Source: Methanolacinia petrolearia DSM 11571 (GTDB lineage Archaea; Halobacteriota; Methanomicrobia; Methanomicrobiales; Methanomicrobiaceae). From it: 64,000 nucleotides of DNA. Below the pieces are notes generated by a model. That model did not search any database, was not told the DNA's origin, and was given only the letters and a program-made list of their open reading frames with translations. Position 1 is the stretch's first letter. Each line of letters starts with the position of its first letter. Location of the stretch: positions 1,922,001 to 1,986,000 of the forward strand of contig NC_014507.1 in NCBI RefSeq assembly GCF_000147875.1. Direction: 5' to 3'. Positions 20,490 to 44,388 of this stretch are shown piece by piece. The position numbers and the translations under genes are program-made.

Positions 20490-20659
20490 TTTTGGACATT
20501 TGGTCTTTTAAGGGCATAAGCCCCGGACGGGGCAGCCCCCTACTCAGGTTTTCTTCGCTTCGCTCCGCAAACCTTCGCAATTGTGATAACCCGGCCTAGT
20601 CCTCGACCTGAATTTTATTTCAGTCAGATGATTTTTTCCTGAGCGAGTTGGGGACGCTC

Positions 20660-20730
20660 GCCCGTCCCCACTCGCGATTTATCGCCATGAGGGGGCGGGT
20701 TATAGGGAGGGGGAATCGTCCCCCTCCCTT
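20660..20730. repeat. 71-bp GC-rich hairpin repeat, copy A
   Basis: Starts GCCCGTCCCC, has CCATGAGGGGG in the middle and ends in a hairpin GGGAGGGGG - AATCGT - CCCCCTCCC. It aligns without gaps to copy B at 20955-21025, differing at about 12 of 71 positions by my count; stem bases are conserved while loop bases differ. Confidence 0.85.
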
Positions 20731-20954
20731 CATAAATAACAAATAAAAATATTTCCAAAGGCAACCCTTGCGCGATTCGCTTCGCGAAACGCCCTGACCT
20801 CAGGGCTTCGCGCTATCGCGATAACCCGGCCTGGACGCTACCCTCTCGGGTAGCCTCGGCCGGGGAAAAGATCTGAGACGGGTAGATCAATGACAAAGAA
20901 ATCATGTTTGGATTTTAAAAAACTGAAAATTTTTATGGAGCAAAGGGGGCCCTT

Positions 20955-21025
20955 GCCCGTCCCCGCATGCGACCTATCACCATGAGGGGGAGGGTCTAAG
21001 GGAGGGGGAAACTTCCCCCTCCCTT
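20955..21025. repeat. 71-bp GC-rich hairpin repeat, copy B
   Basis: Same orientation as copy A, 295 bp further on. Ends in GGGAGGGGG - AAACTT - CCCCCTCCC. The exact conservation of the stem against a changed loop suggests selection on, or transposition of, the hairpin. Confidence 0.85.
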
Positions 21026-34381: not shown

Positions 34382-34532
34382 GATTCATACATAGCCGAAA
34401 ATGGATTTCTCTTTATTATATGCTTTAATTTCACCGAAAACCCCCTTTGTACATGAAGAATTTAATAATCGAAATAAAAGTAAAAAAACTTAAGAAGACA
34501 ATTCAGGTAGAGAAAGAAGATACACCATTCAC

Positions 34533-35780
34533 CTAAACTGCCGTATCCCTGTTGCAGAGGTCGTCCCTGCCGAAGAAATAAAGAACTCCTCCTTCACTTA
34601 TGGCTGAGATATAAGAGCCATCTTCACTCACCTCGACGTCAGTAACTCCACCTATAGTGGTATAATTTCCGATCAGATCTCCTGAACCGTTCAGGCAGTA
34701 TATCTCAGAATTATTTGACCCTGCCACGATCAGATCTCCGGATGAATCTGTTTTGATACTCCTGATAATGCTCTCCGTACCATAAGTCCAGAGAAGAGAA
34801 CCGGTCCGGTTGAAGAAAAAGATCGTACCATCGTCTGAGACCGAGACTATACTGGAACCGTCAGAAGTAATATCTGTTACGCAGAACGGTCTTTCTCCTT
34901 TGTATCTCCAGAGACGGGTCCCGTTATTGCTGAACATGTAGACATAGCGATCCAGTGAACCAGCGGCAAGGTAGGTGCCGTCATCACTAAGGGCAACGTA
35001 CTGGCCGGGATTGGTGTATCTGTACCTGTAAGTATAACCAGCATCGATTGGTCCATAAGTTGTATAATCCAGGATCTTAGCCCCGTTGTTGGAGAAAAGA
35101 TATACCTTATTATAATCTGTTCCGGCAGCGACATATTCGCCGTCAGGAGTTATATCAACGCTTGTTACTTCAAATGAAGATTTATATGCATTTTCCATCC
35201 ACAGAAGCGAACCGTTTACTGAAAAGAACATTATTTTTGCAATTCCTGATGGGTTATGCTCCGTCCCTGCAACGATATACCGCCCGTCAGAGCTTATTTT
35301 TATACTACTTACTGGTCCACCTGTCGTATAGTTCCAGAGAAACATACCATTTTCATCAAAGCAGCTGACGACTCCGTGATCCTGATTACCTACAATCATA
35401 GACGAACCGGCAACCGTTATTCCACCAGAACTTACATCGATACATTCTATGGCCTCAATAGTGCTGAAATTCTGGACTGTGCCTTCACTCACGTTGAAAG
35501 AATACATCTGGCTGGAGCCCGATACAACAACAATTTCCCCGCTATCACTCATTGCAAGATAGGTGAGATGAAATAATTGCAGGTTGTTAGACTGCATTTG
35601 CAGGCCTTTAAACTGCCACGGAGGAGTGAGATAGTTTGACGAAGATACATTGTCAACAGGTTTTTCTTCTGTCCCACCGTTTGAAGTATGAGTCAGGATT
35701 GTAAAGACCAAAAAAATGACGATGACGATTAAGAGATTCGTGAATAGTATCCTTCCTTTCAATGTCTTTTTTAATTTCAT
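34533..35780 (-). CDS. Membrane-anchored PQQ/WD-like beta-propeller protein, copy B
   Basis: A 415-residue protein with one N-terminal signal-anchor helix (FTNLLIVIVIFLVFTILT, ~13-30) and a long extracellular part built of about seven ~40-residue blades. Blades carry the pattern DGxYxAAGSxDxxVYxFxxNGTxLW, as in PQQ-type or WD40 propellers (examples: DGEYVAAGTDYNKVYLFSNNG, ~205). It is Asn/Ser/Thr-rich with many N-glycosylation sites (NGT, NGS, NYT). It is a paralogue of 37931-39157; the last ~310 residues are nearly identical, and 34561-34985 reads as the same DNA. Not a quinoprotein enzyme as far as can be seen; binding or sensing at the cell surface is more likely. ATG has GGTGATGA upstream. 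Confidence 0.82.
   Translation of the reverse strand: MKLKKTLKGRILFTNLLIVIVIFLVFTILTHTSNGGTEEKPVDNVSSSNYLTPPWQFKGLQMQSNNLQLFHLTYLAMSDSGEIVVVSGSSQMYSFNVSEGTVQNFSTIEAIECIDVSSGGITVAGSSMIVGNQDHGVVSCFDENGMFLWNYTTGGPVSSIKISSDGRYIVAGTEHNPSGIAKIMFFSVNGSLLWMENAYKSSFEVTSVDITPDGEYVAAGTDYNKVYLFSNNGAKILDYTTYGPIDAGYTYRYRYTNPGQYVALSDDGTYLAAGSLDRYVYMFSNNGTRLWRYKGERPFCVTDITSDGSSIVSVSDDGTIFFFNRTGSLLWTYGTESIIRSIKTDSSGDLIVAGSNNSEIYCLNGSGDLIGNYTTIGGVTDVEVSEDGSYISAISEGGVLYFFGRDDLCNRDTAV
34561..34985. repeat. 425-bp tract identical to 37959-38383
   Basis: Read side by side the two tracts show no difference, at a constant offset of 3398 bp; the first mismatch is A at 34986 against G at 38384. Flanking parts of the same two genes differ at many sites, so the identity marks a recent gene conversion. 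Confidence 0.85.
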
Positions 35781-35799
35781 CTGTTTTCATCACCGCCTT

Positions 35800-37173
35800 T
35801 TACGCACAAGCACAGGCACCAACCACGAGAATCGCCGGCAAGTTCTCAAACAGGGTAGTATTTATCGGAGACCCGGTCATATTACCGAGATCAAGAATTC
35901 CAATGCGTGACGCAGTCATCCAGTACCGCCAGTAAGTACGATGATTAGGCCATCCGACTATTTCATAGCCCAATGCCGGCTCAGTGCAATCGGTGATATT
36001 TAAGGATTCTGAATAGATGATTTTTTCACTTCCCGGCAGTTGTGTGACGAATCTTACTGACCCGTTCATTGTCAGCCGGGTCAGTTCATTTCCGGATTCA
36101 TCTGCTTTCCAGATATCTCCCTGATCGGTAAATATGAAACCATCGACAGCGTCGCTCCATTGCAATGAAGTATACCTTGAGGAGTAATTGTAATCATACA
36201 TAGGTACCTCGGTTTCGCCGGCAGGACCAATAATAAGGAGATGATTTTCATACGGATGATAGGTAAAATTTGATATATATGCGAACCGATTTGAAGACGG
36301 TTTCCAGGCGAATTCCGAAATTCTGTAGGAATTACTTATGTTAACCGGGATACGGCTGATCACGGAGCCGTCAATGCCGACATCAACCAAAAGGAACTGA
36401 CCAGATCCCCCTTCAAGATCTTCCCCGGAGATAAAAGAAATACTCTCTCCGTCATCACTCCACCGGATAGTGTCCTCCAGTCCTGCCTTACGAATACTAC
36501 AGAGTATATTGCGGTACGTTTCGAACCCGTTCAAATTAGGAAGGGTATAGATCTGACTGCTACTGGAATTATCCACAGAAATGATGTTTACCGTGATATT
36601 TTCTTCATTATACAATATATACGCCAGGAAACGCCCGTCCGGACTCCATGCAGCCGCCCAGGCATCCGAACTGTTTACAAGCAGATATTCATCGTTCGTA
36701 TCAACTGAGACCATCCAGATTCCTTCATTTGAATAACGAAAACCATCCATAGGAGTTCCGGATTTTTCAAGTCCTTTGATTGCTATCGCATCACCCTTCG
36801 GACTCCATAATGGAACTCCAAAGATGTTGAGATTAGATATTTGATGCTTGCCGGAACCGTCGCTTTTCATAAGGAACAAATGCGGATCATCTTCTGCACA
36901 TCCCAGACACGAATAGCTACAGCTGCACGGCTCTTTCCATTCCATGCATGAAAGTGCAATCTCAGTCCCGTCAGGACTTCCAACGGCATAATTGCACGAT
37001 TCCCCGCAGAAGGTTAAATTTGAGATCTCATATGGTGATGATAACTGAGGCTGAACGGGAGAGAGGGTAAAGTTGGATTCAGCTACGGCCGGCACCAGAA
37101 TAAATATTGAAATGAACAATATGGCTACCAGTCCGCGTATATGACCGTTCCTTAGAATCTTAATATTAAACAT
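35800..37173 (-). CDS. Secreted TolB-like beta-propeller protein, copy B (tail frameshifted)
   Basis: A 457-residue exported protein. A signal peptide (LVAILFISIFILVPAVAES, ~14-32) leads into TolB/WD40-like blades with repeated SPDGxxIAxxxx and SxDGESISFIS elements (LSPVQPQLSSPYEISNLTF; WSPDGRFLAYI; WSPKGDAIAIKG). A Cys-rich insert CMEWKEPCSCSYSCLGCAED (~76-95) may be disulphide-bonded or metal-binding. Its paralogue at 39164-40507 ends in a hydrophobic helix plus HKRR. Here the frame ends in ACACA, while the +1 frame would give a PVLVRKRR ending at 35790, so the C-terminal anchor has probably been lost by an indel. Confidence 0.8.
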   Translation of the reverse strand: MFNIKILRNGHIRGLVAILFISIFILVPAVAESNFTLSPVQPQLSSPYEISNLTFCGESCNYAVGSPDGTEIALSCMEWKEPCSCSYSCLGCAEDDPHLFLMKSDGSGKHQISNLNIFGVPLWSPKGDAIAIKGLEKSGTPMDGFRYSNEGIWMVSVDTNDEYLLVNSSDAWAAAWSPDGRFLAYILYNEENITVNIISVDNSSSSQIYTLPNLNGFETYRNILCSIRKAGLEDTIRWSDDGESISFISGEDLEGGSGQFLLVDVGIDGSVISRIPVNISNSYRISEFAWKPSSNRFAYISNFTYHPYENHLLIIGPAGETEVPMYDYNYSSRYTSLQWSDAVDGFIFTDQGDIWKADESGNELTRLTMNGSVRFVTQLPGSEKIIYSESLNITDCTEPALGYEIVGWPNHRTYWRYWMTASRIGILDLGNMTGSPINTTLFENLPAILVVGACACA

Positions 37174-37203
37174 TTTATCATCTTTTTGTACGACATCCCG
37201 TCA

Positions 37204-37797
37204 TTATAAACTGAAATTTTTTTCATATGCTTCATATTTAAAGGGAGAGCCCCTGCTGCTGAGGTACTCCATATAATTGCTCCTGATCTTCGTTTTGTTA
37301 AGATCTATATCTTCAGGAAGAGAGTACCACCTTTCGACTGTAACCCCGTACAGGGGAGAACTTAAATCATCCACGTCAGAATCGTCATATGCAGGTGTAA
37401 TGACAATTTTTGACGGATAGATCTCCTCATTTTCATACAGAAGACTGATATTGGCCGCATCAAATGCATACCAATTAAATGGCGCAAGACCGCAATACTT
37501 GTTTAATGGAACAGTGTTGTAGATTGTACTCGAGGTAATGAGTGTGTTGTCTACAACTCTTCTCGTTGAGTCTTCGTATATCGGTGAAAAGTAGGGCATC
37601 GTAAAACAAGAAAAGTCTACCTGCTGGCATTCTTTCCCTGTTTCATGAGGAGGAATATAAATGAGAACTTCAGTTTTTGGGCTGCAATTCGATTGCTCGG
37701 CAGGCTGATCCCAGGAACAGATAATGTACGTGCAGGCGTTTGTAGCAATCAGCAGGATAACAACCAGAAGAAAAAATACATTCTTTTCCATTTTCAT
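37204..37797 (-). CDS. Exported protein of unknown function between propeller modules
   Basis: About 197 residues. The ATG at 37797 has GGGAG five bases upstream; GTG at 37800 and ATG at 37791 are alternatives. A hydrophobic N-terminus (VFFLLVVILLIATNACTYIICSW) is a signal peptide or anchor, possibly a lipobox-like NAC site. The rest is acidic and Tyr/Ser-rich with paired cysteines (SNCS, KECQQVDFSCF, KYCG), suggesting an extracellular folded domain. No family is recognised. It has no counterpart on the other side of the duplication, so it was inserted into or kept in only one module. Confidence 0.65.
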   Translation of the reverse strand: MKMEKNVFFLLVVILLIATNACTYIICSWDQPAEQSNCSPKTEVLIYIPPHETGKECQQVDFSCFTMPYFSPIYEDSTRRVVDNTLITSSTIYNTVPLNKYCGLAPFNWYAFDAANISLLYENEEIYPSKIVITPAYDDSDVDDLSSPLYGVTVERWYSLPEDIDLNKTKIRSNYMEYLSSRGSPFKYEAYEKNFSL

Positions 37798-37930
37798 CAC
37801 TTCTCCCTTCCAGATAGATCACCAGACCTGTACACCTGAATCATCCACCTGCCACAATTATATTATTTACAGGAAACAACGTTCCTTCCATTGACTCATT
37901 TAATATTTCAGATGGAAAAACACCATTCAT

Positions 37931-39157
37931 CTAAACCACCATACTCCCATTGCATAGATCGTCCCTGCCGAAGAAATAAAGAACTCCTCCTTCACTTATG
38001 GCTGAGATATAAGAGCCATCTTCACTCACCTCGACGTCAGTAACTCCACCTATAGTGGTATAATTTCCGATCAGATCTCCTGAACCGTTCAGGCAGTATA
38101 TCTCAGAATTATTTGACCCTGCCACGATCAGATCTCCGGATGAATCTGTTTTGATACTCCTGATAATGCTCTCCGTACCATAAGTCCAGAGAAGAGAACC
38201 GGTCCGGTTGAAGAAAAAGATCGTACCATCGTCTGAGACCGAGACTATACTGGAACCGTCAGAAGTAATATCTGTTACGCAGAACGGTCTTTCTCCTTTG
38301 TATCTCCAGAGACGGGTCCCGTTATTGCTGAACATGTAGACATAGCGATCCAGTGAACCAGCGGCAAGGTAGGTGCCGTCATCGCTAAGGGCAACATATT
38401 GACCGGGATTGATATCTCTATACCTGTAAGTATAACCGGTATCGATTGGTCCGTAAGTTGTATAATCCAGGATCTCAGTCCCGTTGTTGGAGAAAAGATA
38501 TACCTTGTTATAATCTGTTCCGGCAGCGACATATTCGCCGTCAGGAGTTATATCAACGCTTGTTACTTCAAATGAAGTTTTATATGCATTTTCCATCCAC
38601 AGAAGCGAACCGTTTACTGAAAAAAATATTATTTTTGCAATTCCTGAGGGGTTATGCTCCGTCCCCGCAACAATATATCGGCCGTCAGAGCTTATTTTTA
38701 TACTACTTACCGTTCCGCCTGTCGTATAGTTCCAGAGAAGCTTACCGTTTTCGTCAAAGCAGCTGACGACTCCGTGATCCTGATTATCTACAATAATAGA
38801 CGAACCGGCAACAGTTATTCCGCCGAAACTTACATCGATACATTCTATTCGTGGCTGCAGATCACTTAAATTTTGAACAGTTCCTTCATTCACGTTAAAG
38901 GAATACATCAGGCGGGAGCCTGATACAATAACAATTTCCCCGTTATCGCTCATTGCAAGATAAGCCGGGTAAAATACTTGAGGGCTAAACTGCCAAGGAG
39001 GAGTAAGATTATTGGTCGAAGATATATTGCCAACAGATTTCTCTTCAGTCTCAACCTTTGAAGTATGACCCAGAATTGTAAAGACAAGAAAAATGGCAAT
39101 GATGATTAAGAGAACTGCGAATATTGTCTTTATTCTTATTAACTCTCTCAATTTCAT
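37931..39157 (-). CDS. Membrane-anchored PQQ/WD-like beta-propeller protein, copy A
   Basis: About 408 residues from the ATG at 39157 (GGCGATGA upstream; a TTG at 39160 is adjacent). An N-terminal anchor helix (TIFAVLLIIIAIFLVFTILG) is followed by about seven propeller blades, the same architecture as copy B at 34533-35780. The N-terminal third has diverged (for example FSPQVFYPAY against FKGLQMQSNN), while the C-terminal two thirds are almost identical. It follows the TolB-like copy A after 6 bases, so the pair is translationally linked. Extracellular; function unknown. Confidence 0.82.
   Translation of the reverse strand: MKLRELIRIKTIFAVLLIIIAIFLVFTILGHTSKVETEEKSVGNISSTNNLTPPWQFSPQVFYPAYLAMSDNGEIVIVSGSRLMYSFNVNEGTVQNLSDLQPRIECIDVSFGGITVAGSSIIVDNQDHGVVSCFDENGKLLWNYTTGGTVSSIKISSDGRYIVAGTEHNPSGIAKIIFFSVNGSLLWMENAYKTSFEVTSVDITPDGEYVAAGTDYNKVYLFSNNGTEILDYTTYGPIDTGYTYRYRDINPGQYVALSDDGTYLAAGSLDRYVYMFSNNGTRLWRYKGERPFCVTDITSDGSSIVSVSDDGTIFFFNRTGSLLWTYGTESIIRSIKTDSSGDLIVAGSNNSEIYCLNGSGDLIGNYTTIGGVTDVEVSEDGSYISAISEGGVLYFFGRDDLCNGSMVV
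37959..38383. repeat. 425-bp tract identical to 34561-34985
   Basis: Partner of the conversion tract in copy B. Homology continues on both sides with mismatches and reaches past the stop codon (ACACCATTCA, found near both 3' ends), so the original duplication was larger than the identical tract. Confidence 0.85.
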
Positions 39158-39163
39158 CAATTT

Positions 39164-40507
39164 TCATCGCCTTTTATGCCCAATCACAACCAACACCCCC
39201 GTCGCAAGAATCACTGCCAGAATATCAAATATCGGAGAAGGAATTGAGGATTCAACCGGTTTATCAAGATCCATAACCCCGATGCGAGACGCAGTTGTCC
39301 AGTTCTGCCAAATCTTCTCCTGCTGCGGCCAACCGATACCGAAGTAGCCTAATTGCGGTTCGCAATCGGTTACTTTTTCATTCTCATTAAAGACGATGCA
39401 ACTACCATTCGGCTGCCATGAAAAGGATCTAATCGAGCCGTTCATTGTCAACCTGGTGACATCAGTGCCGTCAGGGTTAATCACCCAGATATCACCGTGA
39501 TAAGAATAGCCAAGGCGGGTTCCGTCAGGATTCCATGATAATAAAGTATGATAGCCTTCTTTTGTCAGAGGAATATCGGTTCCCTCTATAGGATCAACAA
39601 TCCTAACCAGATTTGTATTGTTAAACGACGTGTTTGTCAGGTAAGCAAAAATATCAGAGCAAGGATTCCAGGCAACCATCGAAACCCGGTAATCCGAATC
39701 TGTTACAACTGGAATTTCATTGACCTGCCCTGTTTCGACATTGACCCTGACGAGCAGATATTGCCCATATGAAGTTCGGTTTTCCTGTGACAAAAATACG
39801 ACCTCTTTGCCGTCTTCCGTCCATTTGATTGACTGTTGGATCCACTGCGGATCGGAAACCTGATTCAGTTCACGGCTAAGAGAAGTACTTAGATTGAATA
39901 TTTTCAGCACATAGGCATTCTGCTCATAATTGCAAGTACCGTCTACGTTTTTTTCCAGACATATGCCTTTAACCTTGGAAAGATATGCAATATTCGAACC
40001 GTCAGGACTCCAGGAATATGACAACACAGAATCATTAAAAAGAAATTGCTGATTCGATCCGTCCTTTGCAACCAGCCAATAACCCTTGTTTTCAGGATTT
40101 TGAAAAGAGTCGGTGTATTCGCCTCCAAGAATAAGAAGATGGGTCCCTTGTGGATTCCAGGAAGGAACTGACAGAACCGTTAGATTGCTCAATATTCTCC
40201 TGTCTGAACCATCACTGTTCATAATATTAAGCAGAGCTGGTCCTTCGACACACCCCTCCCACAAACTCGTACAGTTACATGGTTCTTTCCATTTTCTGCA
40301 TACAAACGCGATTTCACATCCGTCGAGACTCCATCCAGGAGAATTGCATGATTCTCCAGTATTTGTCATAATAGAGTAGTTGTACACTGATGTGAAAAGA
40401 GGTTCATCAGGGGAGAGGGTGAAATCCGTTGCTGCAGATACTGTTACAGCAAGAAGCCCAAACGAGACAATTATCAACGCCTTAATGCATGATTTTGATC
40501 TGTCCAT
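39164..40507 (-). CDS. Secreted TolB-like beta-propeller protein, copy A
   Basis: A 447-residue exported protein. A signal peptide (ALIIVSFGLLAVTVSAAT) precedes LSPDEPLFTSVYNYS and TolB-like blades with WSPDGSNIAYLS, WTEDGKEVVFLS, WNPDGTRLGYS and WQPNGSCIVFN. The Cys-rich insert CRKWKEPCNCTSLWEGCVEG (~70-89) corresponds to that in copy B. It ends in a hydrophobic helix (ILAVILATGVLVVIG) and HKRR, a C-terminal membrane anchor. It is first in the five-gene minus-strand block. Such propellers often bind peptides, sugars or partner proteins; no enzyme motif is visible. Confidence 0.82.
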   Translation of the reverse strand: MDRSKSCIKALIIVSFGLLAVTVSAATDFTLSPDEPLFTSVYNYSIMTNTGESCNSPGWSLDGCEIAFVCRKWKEPCNCTSLWEGCVEGPALLNIMNSDGSDRRILSNLTVLSVPSWNPQGTHLLILGGEYTDSFQNPENKGYWLVAKDGSNQQFLFNDSVLSYSWSPDGSNIAYLSKVKGICLEKNVDGTCNYEQNAYVLKIFNLSTSLSRELNQVSDPQWIQQSIKWTEDGKEVVFLSQENRTSYGQYLLVRVNVETGQVNEIPVVTDSDYRVSMVAWNPCSDIFAYLTNTSFNNTNLVRIVDPIEGTDIPLTKEGYHTLLSWNPDGTRLGYSYHGDIWVINPDGTDVTRLTMNGSIRSFSWQPNGSCIVFNENEKVTDCEPQLGYFGIGWPQQEKIWQNWTTASRIGVMDLDKPVESSIPSPIFDILAVILATGVLVVIGHKRR

Positions 40508-40534
40508 TTAAGATTTCACCATGTCAATCAATAA

Positions 40535-42265
40535 TTATTGAATTATACCGAAATTTAACACAAATTCTTCTTCTCCGGGAGAACCAGGTACTTCCCGTCG
40601 TGTCCATTGAATACGGGCACCAAATTGTCCCTGTTGCGGATTACGCGAGTTTGGTTCCAGTGGATTATCATCTGATGAATATCTTAATTTCAGGCAAATA
40701 TTGGGTCTATAATAATCCTCAATTTCACCAGGTCCTATAGCCCGGACTCTTGTTAATACAATCTCATTGCCAGACATATCTGCCAAAGGAAAAGGCAACT
40801 CCCCATTTTCATCATAAGTCCATTGAATTTCCGACTGGAAATCGATATTAACTATCAATTCGCCTGAAGTAACGGGCAGTTTCCTGATACATCTCCAGAC
40901 TCCCTGATCATCAGTTGCACAGGCTTTTAACACAGAACGGTCTCTCAAGTCAAGCCGCATTGTATGTACTAGATCACATGTCAATTTCATACAGCCATAC
41001 TGTGCTATGCCGTCAGGGTCAATCCAGCATGGATCAGGAGGGTCCTCCGGTTCATTGCACCGACTGCCACCGTCACTATCCCACATATATGCTGTTGATG
41101 CGATAAACTTGTGAATTGAATCTTCCGAAAAATCACGCTGGAAAAAAATTGCACCTTTTTTCTGGTCATGATCCTCATAGAGATAAGCATGACTCGGTAT
41201 GAGGAGTTTATAATCTCCCTCATCTGAAAAGGAGGATTCGTCATGAAAAGGCAGATCGTTCATTCTTGCCTCGAATTCATAACCCAATATTACATATTTT
41301 TTCGATTGCAAATCATCATAGTATCTTGCTTCAAACTCAATCGCAGCCTGATCAATACCTATAATCAATGTCCATTGCCATGTGACAGGATCCGACGTCA
41401 CTCCGTCACTTTTAGCGATAATTGATACAGTGTGCTCTCCAAGATGTGAAGCATCTTTCATATATGCGATAAAATCAGGACTTTGCTCAAAGGTTACATT
41501 TGTATCACCCTGAATTGCTTCTTTTGTATCTACAGTATCATCATCCACTTTCAGTTCCAGCAGTGCAGGCAGGTTGGCCTGAACAGTTATGACAGGTGGA
41601 TCATTATTCATTCTGGATGAAACAAGAGAATCCGTCAAGGGATTGATTTTATTTACCACCAGATTTTCAAAGATCTCCCAGGACCATGTAAAGGAATCGC
41701 TCCCGATTGAATTAACCGCAGATACAACTACGGTATGCATCCCTCCGGAATAACTAAAGAAATTACATTCCCACGTTGCGCTTTCCACAGCACGAAACCT
41801 TCTCTTTTCCTGCCCGTCAATCGTGAAAATAATTGTTGCAGGGTGATCGATTGTTACATCAAAGGTCCTTATATTCGATCCACCAAGTACATCGGAGATG
41901 CTATCCTGCTCAGGGCTTTTACTAATAATATGAGGCGGCACTGTTATGGGGTTTTGTGTGATAACCTCAGAAACTACTCTTTCTGTAGATCCATTATCGT
42001 TTTCAGCAACAATACGAATTTCATGAGGAGTCGGATCATCAGGATCGGGATCAACAACATCCGAATTAAATAGCCATGAAAAATGTGTTACAAGTTGTTC
42101 TGTTACAAACGCCACTGCGCCATCAAAAAACACTCTAATTATTGATGCTTCGTCAACAAAAATCTCAAACTGCCGTGCAAAAAAACTCTCTAGGGTATCT
42201 AGAATACAGTCTTCCTCAGGCTCCATCGAAGTTATAACCGGAGGATACACAACTGGTCCGCACAT
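40535..42265 (-). CDS. Ig-like multi-domain protein without signal peptide
   Basis: A 576-residue protein of unrecognised family. The first ~290 residues hold at least three Ig/cadherin-like repeats of about 90 residues, each opening with PPxIxxxxPxxDSIxD and ending in a WSWEI/WQWTL/FSWLF strand (VITSMEPEEDCILD; HIISKSPEQDSISD; VNKINPLTDSLVS). The C-terminal half differs, with a Cys-rich segment DGGSRCNEPEDPPDPCW (~415) and CMKLTC. No signal peptide or anchor is visible. The ATG immediately follows the TAG of the NTPase gene and has GGAGGTG upstream, so the two are coupled. Possibly a surface, adhesion or particle component exported by another route. Confidence 0.7.
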   Translation of the reverse strand: MCGPVVYPPVITSMEPEEDCILDTLESFFARQFEIFVDEASIIRVFFDGAVAFVTEQLVTHFSWLFNSDVVDPDPDDPTPHEIRIVAENDNGSTERVVSEVITQNPITVPPHIISKSPEQDSISDVLGGSNIRTFDVTIDHPATIIFTIDGQEKRRFRAVESATWECNFFSYSGGMHTVVVSAVNSIGSDSFTWSWEIFENLVVNKINPLTDSLVSSRMNNDPPVITVQANLPALLELKVDDDTVDTKEAIQGDTNVTFEQSPDFIAYMKDASHLGEHTVSIIAKSDGVTSDPVTWQWTLIIGIDQAAIEFEARYYDDLQSKKYVILGYEFEARMNDLPFHDESSFSDEGDYKLLIPSHAYLYEDHDQKKGAIFFQRDFSEDSIHKFIASTAYMWDSDGGSRCNEPEDPPDPCWIDPDGIAQYGCMKLTCDLVHTMRLDLRDRSVLKACATDDQGVWRCIRKLPVTSGELIVNIDFQSEIQWTYDENGELPFPLADMSGNEIVLTRVRAIGPGEIEDYYRPNICLKLRYSSDDNPLEPNSRNPQQGQFGARIQWTRREVPGSPGEEEFVLNFGIIQ

Positions 42266-43324
42266 CTACTCCACCTCCAGCAGACCTTCGCCAATCAGGT
42301 ATTGCGGGAGAATCCAACCGTTGCAGAACAGAATATTTCCGTCCCGCCATACAGGCTCCCTGTCGGGGATGGGCCTGAATGTGGTGAATTTACGGTTATA
42401 CCCGGATAATGAATCGTCTGCATCTTTCGTTCCCTTGTTCCTGATAATATTATTCAGGTTCCCGATGAAGGAATCAAAATCCGTATCGACCCTGAGGTCG
42501 GGATCTTTTCTCACGACATCCTCGTATACTCCCGGCTGGTAGCAGATCACCGGATGGCTCTCCGGCCGGTCACGGAACTTCAATTTGTCCTGGAGGGAAT
42601 CGCCTATGACTGCGATATCATAGCTCTCCTTCCTATACCTCATCATGAACTTCGCGTACTGGGAACTGTACCATCGCATATGCGGGAATATATCCCAGTA
42701 CTCATCCGGGAAAGCACCGACCGTAATGAGCCTCTTGTCGCTGACCGGAAAAGTATATTTAGGATCGATCTCATCATAGACCAGCGCGCCGGTGTTGTGG
42801 ACATAACCGCCGCTGTCAAGGAACGGACTGCCCAATTTCTCCATCGCCCCGATAACAACCCTCTGTACATTCCTGTCAAGGAAATAGTCCCGGAAATCAG
42901 ATGGTCTGCATTCACCCTTTCCATCCTCTGGAATCCAGTTGTTCTCGTAGTATTTGAGGATGTAATCGTCCCATGAACCGAGATGCTCCGAAGAGATCAC
43001 CTCGTTTACATTCTCAAAGAGCTGGAGGTATGCAATATCCGCCGGTGATTTGCCGAGAGTTATCTCCATCAGGTAGATATCGAACCCTGCCGGAACCCAT
43101 CTTTCGAATTCCGCTTTGCTAGCCGCCGCTTCAAGAGGAATGGAATAATGGTAGATATTCTTCTTGATATAGGACTTGAAATCATTCTGCCCTTTGTTTG
43201 CCTGAAGGCATGCTACTTTGTAACCCTTGCTGCTGAAATGGTTGTACAGTTCGAGTATCATTTTCGTCTTTCCCTGTCCGGGGACCGAAGAAAATACGTA
43301 AATCTTTGGAAGTGTTGCTGTCAT
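42266..43324 (-). CDS. P-loop NTPase of the BioD/CobQ-like type
   Basis: A 352-residue soluble protein starting KIYVFSSVPGQGKTKMILEL (P-loop PGQGKT at ~15-20), followed by GYKVACLQANKGQNDF (~34-49) and FDIYLMEITLG (~80, Walker-B-like acidic strand). This resembles dethiobiotin synthetase/CobQ amidoligase-like ATPases in the first ~130 residues. The remainder includes RVVIGAMEKLGSPFLDSGG, YDIAVIGDSLQDKL and a Trp/Pro-rich tail. I cannot name the substrate. It has GGTGGGG before its ATG and runs directly into the Ig-like gene; a radical SAM gene diverges 117 bp away. Confidence 0.72.
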   Translation of the reverse strand: MTATLPKIYVFSSVPGQGKTKMILELYNHFSSKGYKVACLQANKGQNDFKSYIKKNIYHYSIPLEAAASKAEFERWVPAGFDIYLMEITLGKSPADIAYLQLFENVNEVISSEHLGSWDDYILKYYENNWIPEDGKGECRPSDFRDYFLDRNVQRVVIGAMEKLGSPFLDSGGYVHNTGALVYDEIDPKYTFPVSDKRLITVGAFPDEYWDIFPHMRWYSSQYAKFMMRYRKESYDIAVIGDSLQDKLKFRDRPESHPVICYQPGVYEDVVRKDPDLRVDTDFDSFIGNLNNIIRNKGTKDADDSLSGYNRKFTTFRPIPDREPVWRDGNILFCNGWILPQYLIGEGLLEVE

Positions 43325-43441
43325 TTTGCCCCACCATAGTTTATAATAAATGATAAAAACGTAATATAAGTTATTACTTTTGTTAGGGATGTTAACTTAA
43401 CAAGGCACACGGAATACACAAATGACACATGATGGTGAAAG

Positions 43442-44170
43442 ATGAATAACCCGGATAACAGGATACCTCCGATCCTCCAGGTCGAACCCTCGACAGATTG
43501 CAACCTCGACTGCCCTTTCTGTCTCAGAAAAAAATACTCGCAGAAAGGAGAGAACATGACCTTTGAAATATTTAAAGAAGCCGTCGATAAGCATGGCTTC
43601 AGGTACCTCTCTCTTCACGGATGGGGGGAACCTCTTATGAACCCATATCTCATCGATATGAGAAAATACGGTTCAGGAAAAGGGATCTCAGTCAATTTCA
43701 CGACTAACGCAACACTCATTAAAGAAAATACAGATAAACTGCTCGACTCGGGACTGGAAATTGTTGCGTTCAGCCTCCCCGATATATCCATGTTCAACCC
43801 GGAAATCAGGCATAACATAGAACATTTCATAACATGCAGAAACCGCAGGAAACCGGATTATCCAAAAACATATATCAATGTCGCTCTGATGGAGAGGAAC
43901 TTCGACACCGTAAAGAAGGTTCTCTCCATTTCAAAGGAGCTTGATGTCGATGCCGTAAACTTCGAAAGGTCGTACCCGTGGAGACCGGAATACACCGAAA
44001 AAGAAGAGATGATATTTAAGAGTATAATAAATTCTGCGGAAAAATTAGAATGCAGGGCAGTCGTTCCCCTGCCGCACACCCTCCCCTGCAGGCTCTTCAA
44101 TACGACACTCTTCATGAGATGGAACGGTGACGTGACGCCGTGCTGCTACAGGCCGGATCACGTACTGTGA
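43442..44170 (+). CDS. Radical SAM/SPASM-type protein, cut short by an in-frame TGA
   Basis: A 242-residue radical SAM protein with the cluster motif CNLDCPFC (~18-25), a GGE-like SLHGWGEPLMNP (~57-68) and TTNATLI (~87). The C-terminal region begins a SPASM-like auxiliary cluster site (LPCRLF, DVTPCCYRPDHVL) and then meets TGA at 44168-44170. The same frame continues for 32 more codons with a matching SPASM ending (see next entry). As written, the protein lacks the last two cluster cysteines. Members modify peptides or other substrates; the target here is unknown. Confidence 0.82.
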   Translation: MNNPDNRIPPILQVEPSTDCNLDCPFCLRKKYSQKGENMTFEIFKEAVDKHGFRYLSLHGWGEPLMNPYLIDMRKYGSGKGISVNFTTNATLIKENTDKLLDSGLEIVAFSLPDISMFNPEIRHNIEHFITCRNRRKPDYPKTYINVALMERNFDTVKKVLSISKELDVDAVNFERSYPWRPEYTEKEEMIFKSIINSAEKLECRAVVPLPHTLPCRLFNTTLFMRWNGDVTPCCYRPDHVL

Positions 44171-44269
44171 AACATAATGAAAGATGATTTTGAGAACATA
44201 ATATCAAGACGAGAAAATTTCCGGAGAAATATGACCGAAGATCCTGTGTGTATCTCGTGCGGTATTTAA
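44171..44269 (+). pseudogene. Detached SPASM C-terminus of the radical SAM gene
   Basis: In the same frame, after the TGA, 32 codons read NIMKDDFENIISRREN, then FRRNMTEDPVCISCGI, and end at TAA 44267-44269. The CISC pair is the expected end of an SPASM domain. The residue at the TGA is usually Gly (VLGNI), so one GGA-to-TGA change would explain it. Confidence 0.75.
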
Positions 44270-44388
44270 AGTTAGCACTTCCTCCCCGCGTTTAATCACA
44301 TCATCAAAAAACATCCGCCAATAAAATTTTCTCCTTTTCCCCTGACCCCGGATACTTCTATTATCATATAGAAACAAAATTATTCCAG

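Follow-up and report, generated by a model that had tools for sequence, protein, structure and literature searches.

In Methanomicrobiales, the paralogs mtrA-1 and mtrA-2 undergo concerted evolution, with gene conversion homogenising one domain of the pair (PMC4632066). Recombination in surface-gene islands has been described for the cell-wall genomic island of Haloquadratum walsbyi (PMC4535781), and highly repetitive WD40 propellers of prokaryotes offer a parallel within a single fold family (PMC5587647, PMC9218822). The locus of Methanolacinia petrolearia described here resembles each of these systems in part. As with mtrA, a paralog pair from the same archaeal order has been homogenised in one domain while the remainder differs (PMC4632066). 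However, mtrA genes belong to core methanogenesis and their conversion is very long-lasting, whereas here the genes are accessory, one recent tract is present and exchange between species is added. As in the Haloquadratum island, surface-protein genes are under purifying selection and owe their diversity to homologous recombination and mobile elements (PMC4535781), but that case rests on population fosmid data from a halophile, and ours concerns two paralogs with another gene set in a single methanogen genome. In the repetitive WD40 propellers, blades are amplified within one gene; in our pair, two genes swap half a propeller. The recombination mechanism is thus ordinary and already known, and the example is unusually well resolved.

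The window, a stretch of 64,000 nt to which all positions below refer unless a locus is named, comes from the complete genome of M. petrolearia SEBR 4847 (2,843,290 bp) and carries two modules on the minus strand. Module 1 consists of orf198 (37204-37800), TolB1 (35800-37173, 457 aa, a secreted TolB-like propeller) and PQQ1 (34533-35780, 415 aa), which combines an N-terminal membrane anchor with a WD40/PQQ-type propeller read as eight-bladed from the strand list of its structural model. The small product of orf198, the first gene of the module, is secreted or lipoprotein-like and gave no match in Pfam. Module 2 consists of orf352 (42266-43324), encoding the P-loop NTPase-like protein that is the hallmark of the cassette discussed below, orf576 (40535-42265, a mosaic Ig-like protein), TolB2 (39164-40507, a secreted TolB-like propeller with a hydrophobic C-terminal anchor ending in HKRR) and PQQ2 (37931-39160, 409 aa, the paralog of PQQ1). 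The original prediction described a two-gene module duplicated in tandem. Two pairs of TolB-like and WD40/PQQ-like genes do lie on the minus strand, but they form no clean two-gene repeat: orf198 sits between the copies, and copy 2 is placed behind orf576 and orf352. The proteins share 86% identity overall for PQQ1/PQQ2 and 37% for TolB1/TolB2. A gene remnant (34400-34532, minus strand) has its counterpart in a 208-aa gene that follows PQQ in another genus of the same family (G017). TolB1 itself ends in ...GACACA, and an anchor-like C-terminal tail (RKRR) lies out of frame in 35781-35900 (minus strand); the end of TolB1 is nearly the same in the sister species, and the anchor-like tail is kept by TolB2 and by a Methanoculleus relative (L070).

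Both PQQ proteins score above the Pfam cut-off for WD40/PQQ_2 and an AlphaFold2 model of PQQ1 (pLDDT 78) consists of an N-terminal helix and a propeller, so that profile and fold agree on membership of the WD40/PQQ beta-propellers. The solved structures closest in fold are WD40-type propellers of a generic kind, for example 2ymu and the designed Cake8. An identity as BamB failed the equivalog test (about 40 bits against a cut-off of 285). The TolB-like proteins match PD40/DPPIV_N and TIGR02800 (TolB) weakly; at 30.5 and 52.3 bits they fall far under the equivalog cut-off of 343, and we call them TolB-like only, not TolB of the Tol-Pal system. Hydrophobic N-termini are present, a surface location is predicted, and the PQQ genes of both copies would encode membrane-anchored extracellular beta-propellers. 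Judging from fold, membrane anchor and neighbours, the most probable role of these proteins is in binding or as a scaffold at the cell surface.

The two PQQ genes share an identical tract of 425 nt, located at 34561-34985 in PQQ1 and at 37959-38383 in PQQ2 (both minus strand). Alignment of the copies at the DNA level bore out the predicted identity at an offset of 3398, with 0 mismatches and a sharp drop of identity at both ends; in the whole genome the tract occurs in these two places only, with no third copy. It encodes residues 266-407, from strand 2 of blade 5 to the end of blade 8, and its upstream edge adjoins a poorly modelled variable loop of PQQ1. The middle region next to it differs by 6.6% between the copies and the 5' part of the genes by about 20%. 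With the neighbouring stretch diverging by 6.5%, a run of 425 identical bases would be expected with a probability of 4e-13. In an alignment of four sequences with 351 variable columns, the longest run of columns in which copy 1 equals copy 2 is 75, and the maximum over 20,000 permutations is 34, none of them reaching the observed run. Synonymous differences between the copies amount to 0 over 99.7 sites inside the tract, against a dS of 0.20 in the middle and 0.51 in the N-terminal part beside it. The silent sites of TolB1 and TolB2 are saturated, with a dN of 0.63.

Saturation in one gene pair together with a tract free of silent differences in the other points to recombination, rather than to recent duplication or constraint. 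Without recombination, a tandem duplication of recent date under strong C-terminal constraint could draw on the C-terminal half being the most conserved part of the gene in another genus, but it is refuted by the silent sites and contradicted by the saturated TolB pair, and we regard it as practically discounted. An assembly in which the consensus copied one tract onto the other deserves slightly more thought: the genome was assembled from 454 and Illumina reads, and the tract is about as long as a 454 read. However, the sequence was finished with a paired 9.5-kb library to an error below 1 in 100,000 (PMC3035365), and a true copy-1 tract resembling that of the sister species would differ by about 7% from copy 2, when the adjacent middle, at 6.6%, was resolved without trouble. 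Such an artefact is therefore very unlikely as the source of the identity. Sharp-edged identity, homogenised silent sites and a topology switch against a species outgroup, the marks of conversion between paralogs, are all present. The gene pairs very probably split long ago and the tract arose recently by homologous recombination between paralogs, and the gene conversion proposed at the outset gains the backing of a sister genome and an outgroup.

Comparison with the sister species of the same genus (G001) adds a further layer. The sister carries copy 1 only, with orf198, TolB1 and PQQ1 followed directly by dcd, and lacks the block 37802-44346, which holds PQQ2, TolB2, orf576, orf352 and a radical-SAM gene. 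We dropped a clean transposon insertion as an account of this 6.5-kb block: the sister has 204 unrelated bases there, and no clean edges. The flanks align at 94% identity, and silent divergence of the flanking genes is 0.15-0.32. Over 72 kb aligned to the sister, the median is 65 differences per kb and the 5th percentile 36. The stretch 35032-36126 shows 6 differences in 1095 nt, compared with about 65 per kb, and contains the kilobase of lowest divergence in the alignment (5 per kb); divergence this far under the species background is what homologous import between species leaves. In the tract, copy 1 differs from the sister at 31 positions (7.3%, dS 0.26), which is the ordinary species level. 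Site patterns follow the same boundaries. From 35780 to 35032, copy 1 agrees with the sister at 97 sites and with copy 2 at 1; from 34985 to 34561, the counts are 0 and 31; behind the tract, they are 8 and 1. Both switches in copy 1 fall inside one stretch of 46 nt (34986-35031, minus strand) of mixed site pattern, which encodes the variable loop that links blades 4 and 5, together with the edge of this loop. On these patterns, PQQ1 is evidently a mosaic in which recombination between paralogs and recombination between species meet in one gene. Further upstream, TolB1 36127-36900 is the stretch most variable against the sister (8-19 differences per 100 nt, dN below dS), and this divergence hot spot is perhaps another imported allele.

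The order and direction of these events can be proposed with some preference. Two long-separated propeller gene copies, 3.4 kb apart in direct orientation, would still be exchanging DNA by homologous recombination. In the M. petrolearia lineage, PQQ1 would have overwritten by gene conversion some 880 nt of PQQ2, comprising its middle and 3' part and corresponding to about 35440-34561. Later, homologous DNA of the sister lineage would have replaced 1.1 kb of copy 1 at 35032-36126, that is, the 3' end of TolB1 and the first two thirds of PQQ1. This import would have restored the difference in the middle, so that 425 nt of the converted tract were left identical. The dS between copy 2 and the sister lies at the ordinary species level in the middle (0.21) and the tract (0.26), given a background of 0.15-0.32, and far above it in the N-terminal part (0.51), the pattern expected of a sequence derived from copy 1 no earlier than the divergence of the species. 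We prefer import into M. petrolearia over transfer the other way, as the edge of the import falls together with that of the conversion. The direction rests on few sequences: apart from M. petrolearia, only a single sister genome and a single outgroup have the PQQ gene.

The opposite direction would have copy 1, sister-like over its full length, receiving the 425-nt tract from copy 2 recently. Copy 1 does depart from the sister exactly in the tract, and the divergence of copy 2 stays at the same level from the middle through the tract. Total identity is also fitted slightly better by such a very recent event: the supposedly later import diverges by 0.55%, a rate at which about 2.3 differences would be expected in the tract and none would occur with a chance of about 0.1, although the import may have come from a strain other than the sequenced sister. 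Conversion from copy 2 to copy 1 nevertheless calls for three events (an old conversion from copy 1 to copy 2, the import and the conversion back), against two. We hold it for a real but minority option, and mildly favour the history in which conversion from copy 1 to copy 2 preceded the sister-type import, its order and direction being our inference.

Selection for variation finds little place in this picture. The original prediction had seen the propeller face as under selection or varying like an antigen, and conversion would then be kept because it reshuffles propeller faces. The surface-type genes, the patchy cassette and the mosaic orf576 would suit such a locus, as would a hot spot of TolB1 at 36400-36600 (dN 0.16, dS 0.50). 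However, dN/dS stays below 1 in each part with enough changes, at 0.41 (N-terminal part, between copies), 0.18 (middle, between copies) and 0.12 (tract, copy 1 against the sister), which indicates purifying selection; neither the copies nor the sister comparison has the nonsynonymous excess of an antigenic or phase variation locus. Conversion here also takes variation away. The predicted divergence of the N-terminal parts is true of the paralogs only; between species, that part of copy 1 is nearly invariant (1 nonsynonymous change, no synonymous one). Against G017, constraint is strongest in the C-terminal half (dN 0.06, elsewhere 0.23-0.30), so that constraint and recombination would suffice without selection for variation, and we consider selected antigen variation quite unlikely.

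Copy 2 is part of a patchy cassette of a P-loop protein, an Ig-like protein, TolB and PQQ, and both copies probably derive from such a laterally moving cassette of surface-protein genes. In G017, the module is missing at this place, where spoU directly adjoins dcd, and the PQQ gene sits elsewhere, behind orf352-like and orf576-like genes and a transposase. PQQ1 and PQQ2 show a pS of 0.44-0.58 to their G017 relative, far below the 0.82-0.94 of six flanking genes in the same genomes, which implies that the PQQ gene moved between genera. The patchiness of the cassette and its transfer between genera are thus well evidenced at the level of sequence comparison. An alignment search of the order found members of the PQQ clade nowhere but in G000 (twice), G001 and G017, apart from a single distant match; a single-protein scan of genome contigs with PQQ2 gave no match. 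Relatives of orf352 occur in 17 of the 232 genomes of the class, and also in named records of Methanoculleus, Methanolobus, Methanococcoides, Methanoregula and Methanomethylovorans. Ig-like proteins stand behind them in most loci inspected, with TolB-like propellers in several, and the gene order of module 2 is matched in Methanoculleus UBA208 (L070) and Methanococcoides seepicolus (L072). In orf576, residues 1-200 resemble another copy in the M. petrolearia genome and residues 200-576 resemble Methanoculleus; exchange of N- and C-terminal parts thus appears twice in the cassette, in PQQ and in orf576.

Several other features of these loci were recorded. We withheld an enzyme name for orf352, which has only weak matches to the P-loop classes SRP54/FtsY/MeaB/ParF (TM about 0.3) and for which structure comparison found no clear solved relative. 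Its relative in Methanolobus psychrotolerans (L074 7893-9014) starts with what resembles a twin-arginine export signal (MNRRTFLKAVGAAGAAA); if true, this would place a P-loop protein outside the cell. The radical-SAM gene adjoining the cassette (43442-44170, plus strand) has an in-frame TGA and stops about 33 codons short of its L041 and L044 relatives, losing the last cysteine motif through the early stop. Defence-system models gave no match save the generic radical-SAM/viperin similarity of this neighbouring gene. A second orf352/orf576/radical-SAM cassette is found in the same genome (L041 7471-11930 and 12041-12131, contig about 110 kb), accompanied by the leftover fragment of a third orf352 start. 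Decayed or partial cassettes, with orf352 broken, truncated or cut by the contig end, occur at L044, L045 (G022) and L043 (G002). In two unrelated genera (L042 4227-8413 and L073 2399-7752), a CobN-like chelatase gene and an ABC ATPase immediately precede the cassette; the ATPase gene of G017 is truncated where the cassette begins. Two copies of an element of 85-91 bp lie at 20650-20734 and 20936-21025, and a further one, 82% identical, at L041 4407-4501; no tRNA was found at the copies.

On a broader and speculative reading, to which we give low credence, the cassette would be a surface system of methanogens that has no name yet and spreads laterally. Recombination would exchange halves of its binding proteins among paralogs, across species and across genera, much as recognition or antigen loci are shuffled elsewhere, with this system as their archaeal equivalent. 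The locus records at base level how recombination between paralogs and between species has come together in a single archaeal gene, and it draws attention to an uncharacterised cassette that moves from one methanogen genus to another. A further lesson is that a tree built from surface genes of this type may blend several histories within one gene.
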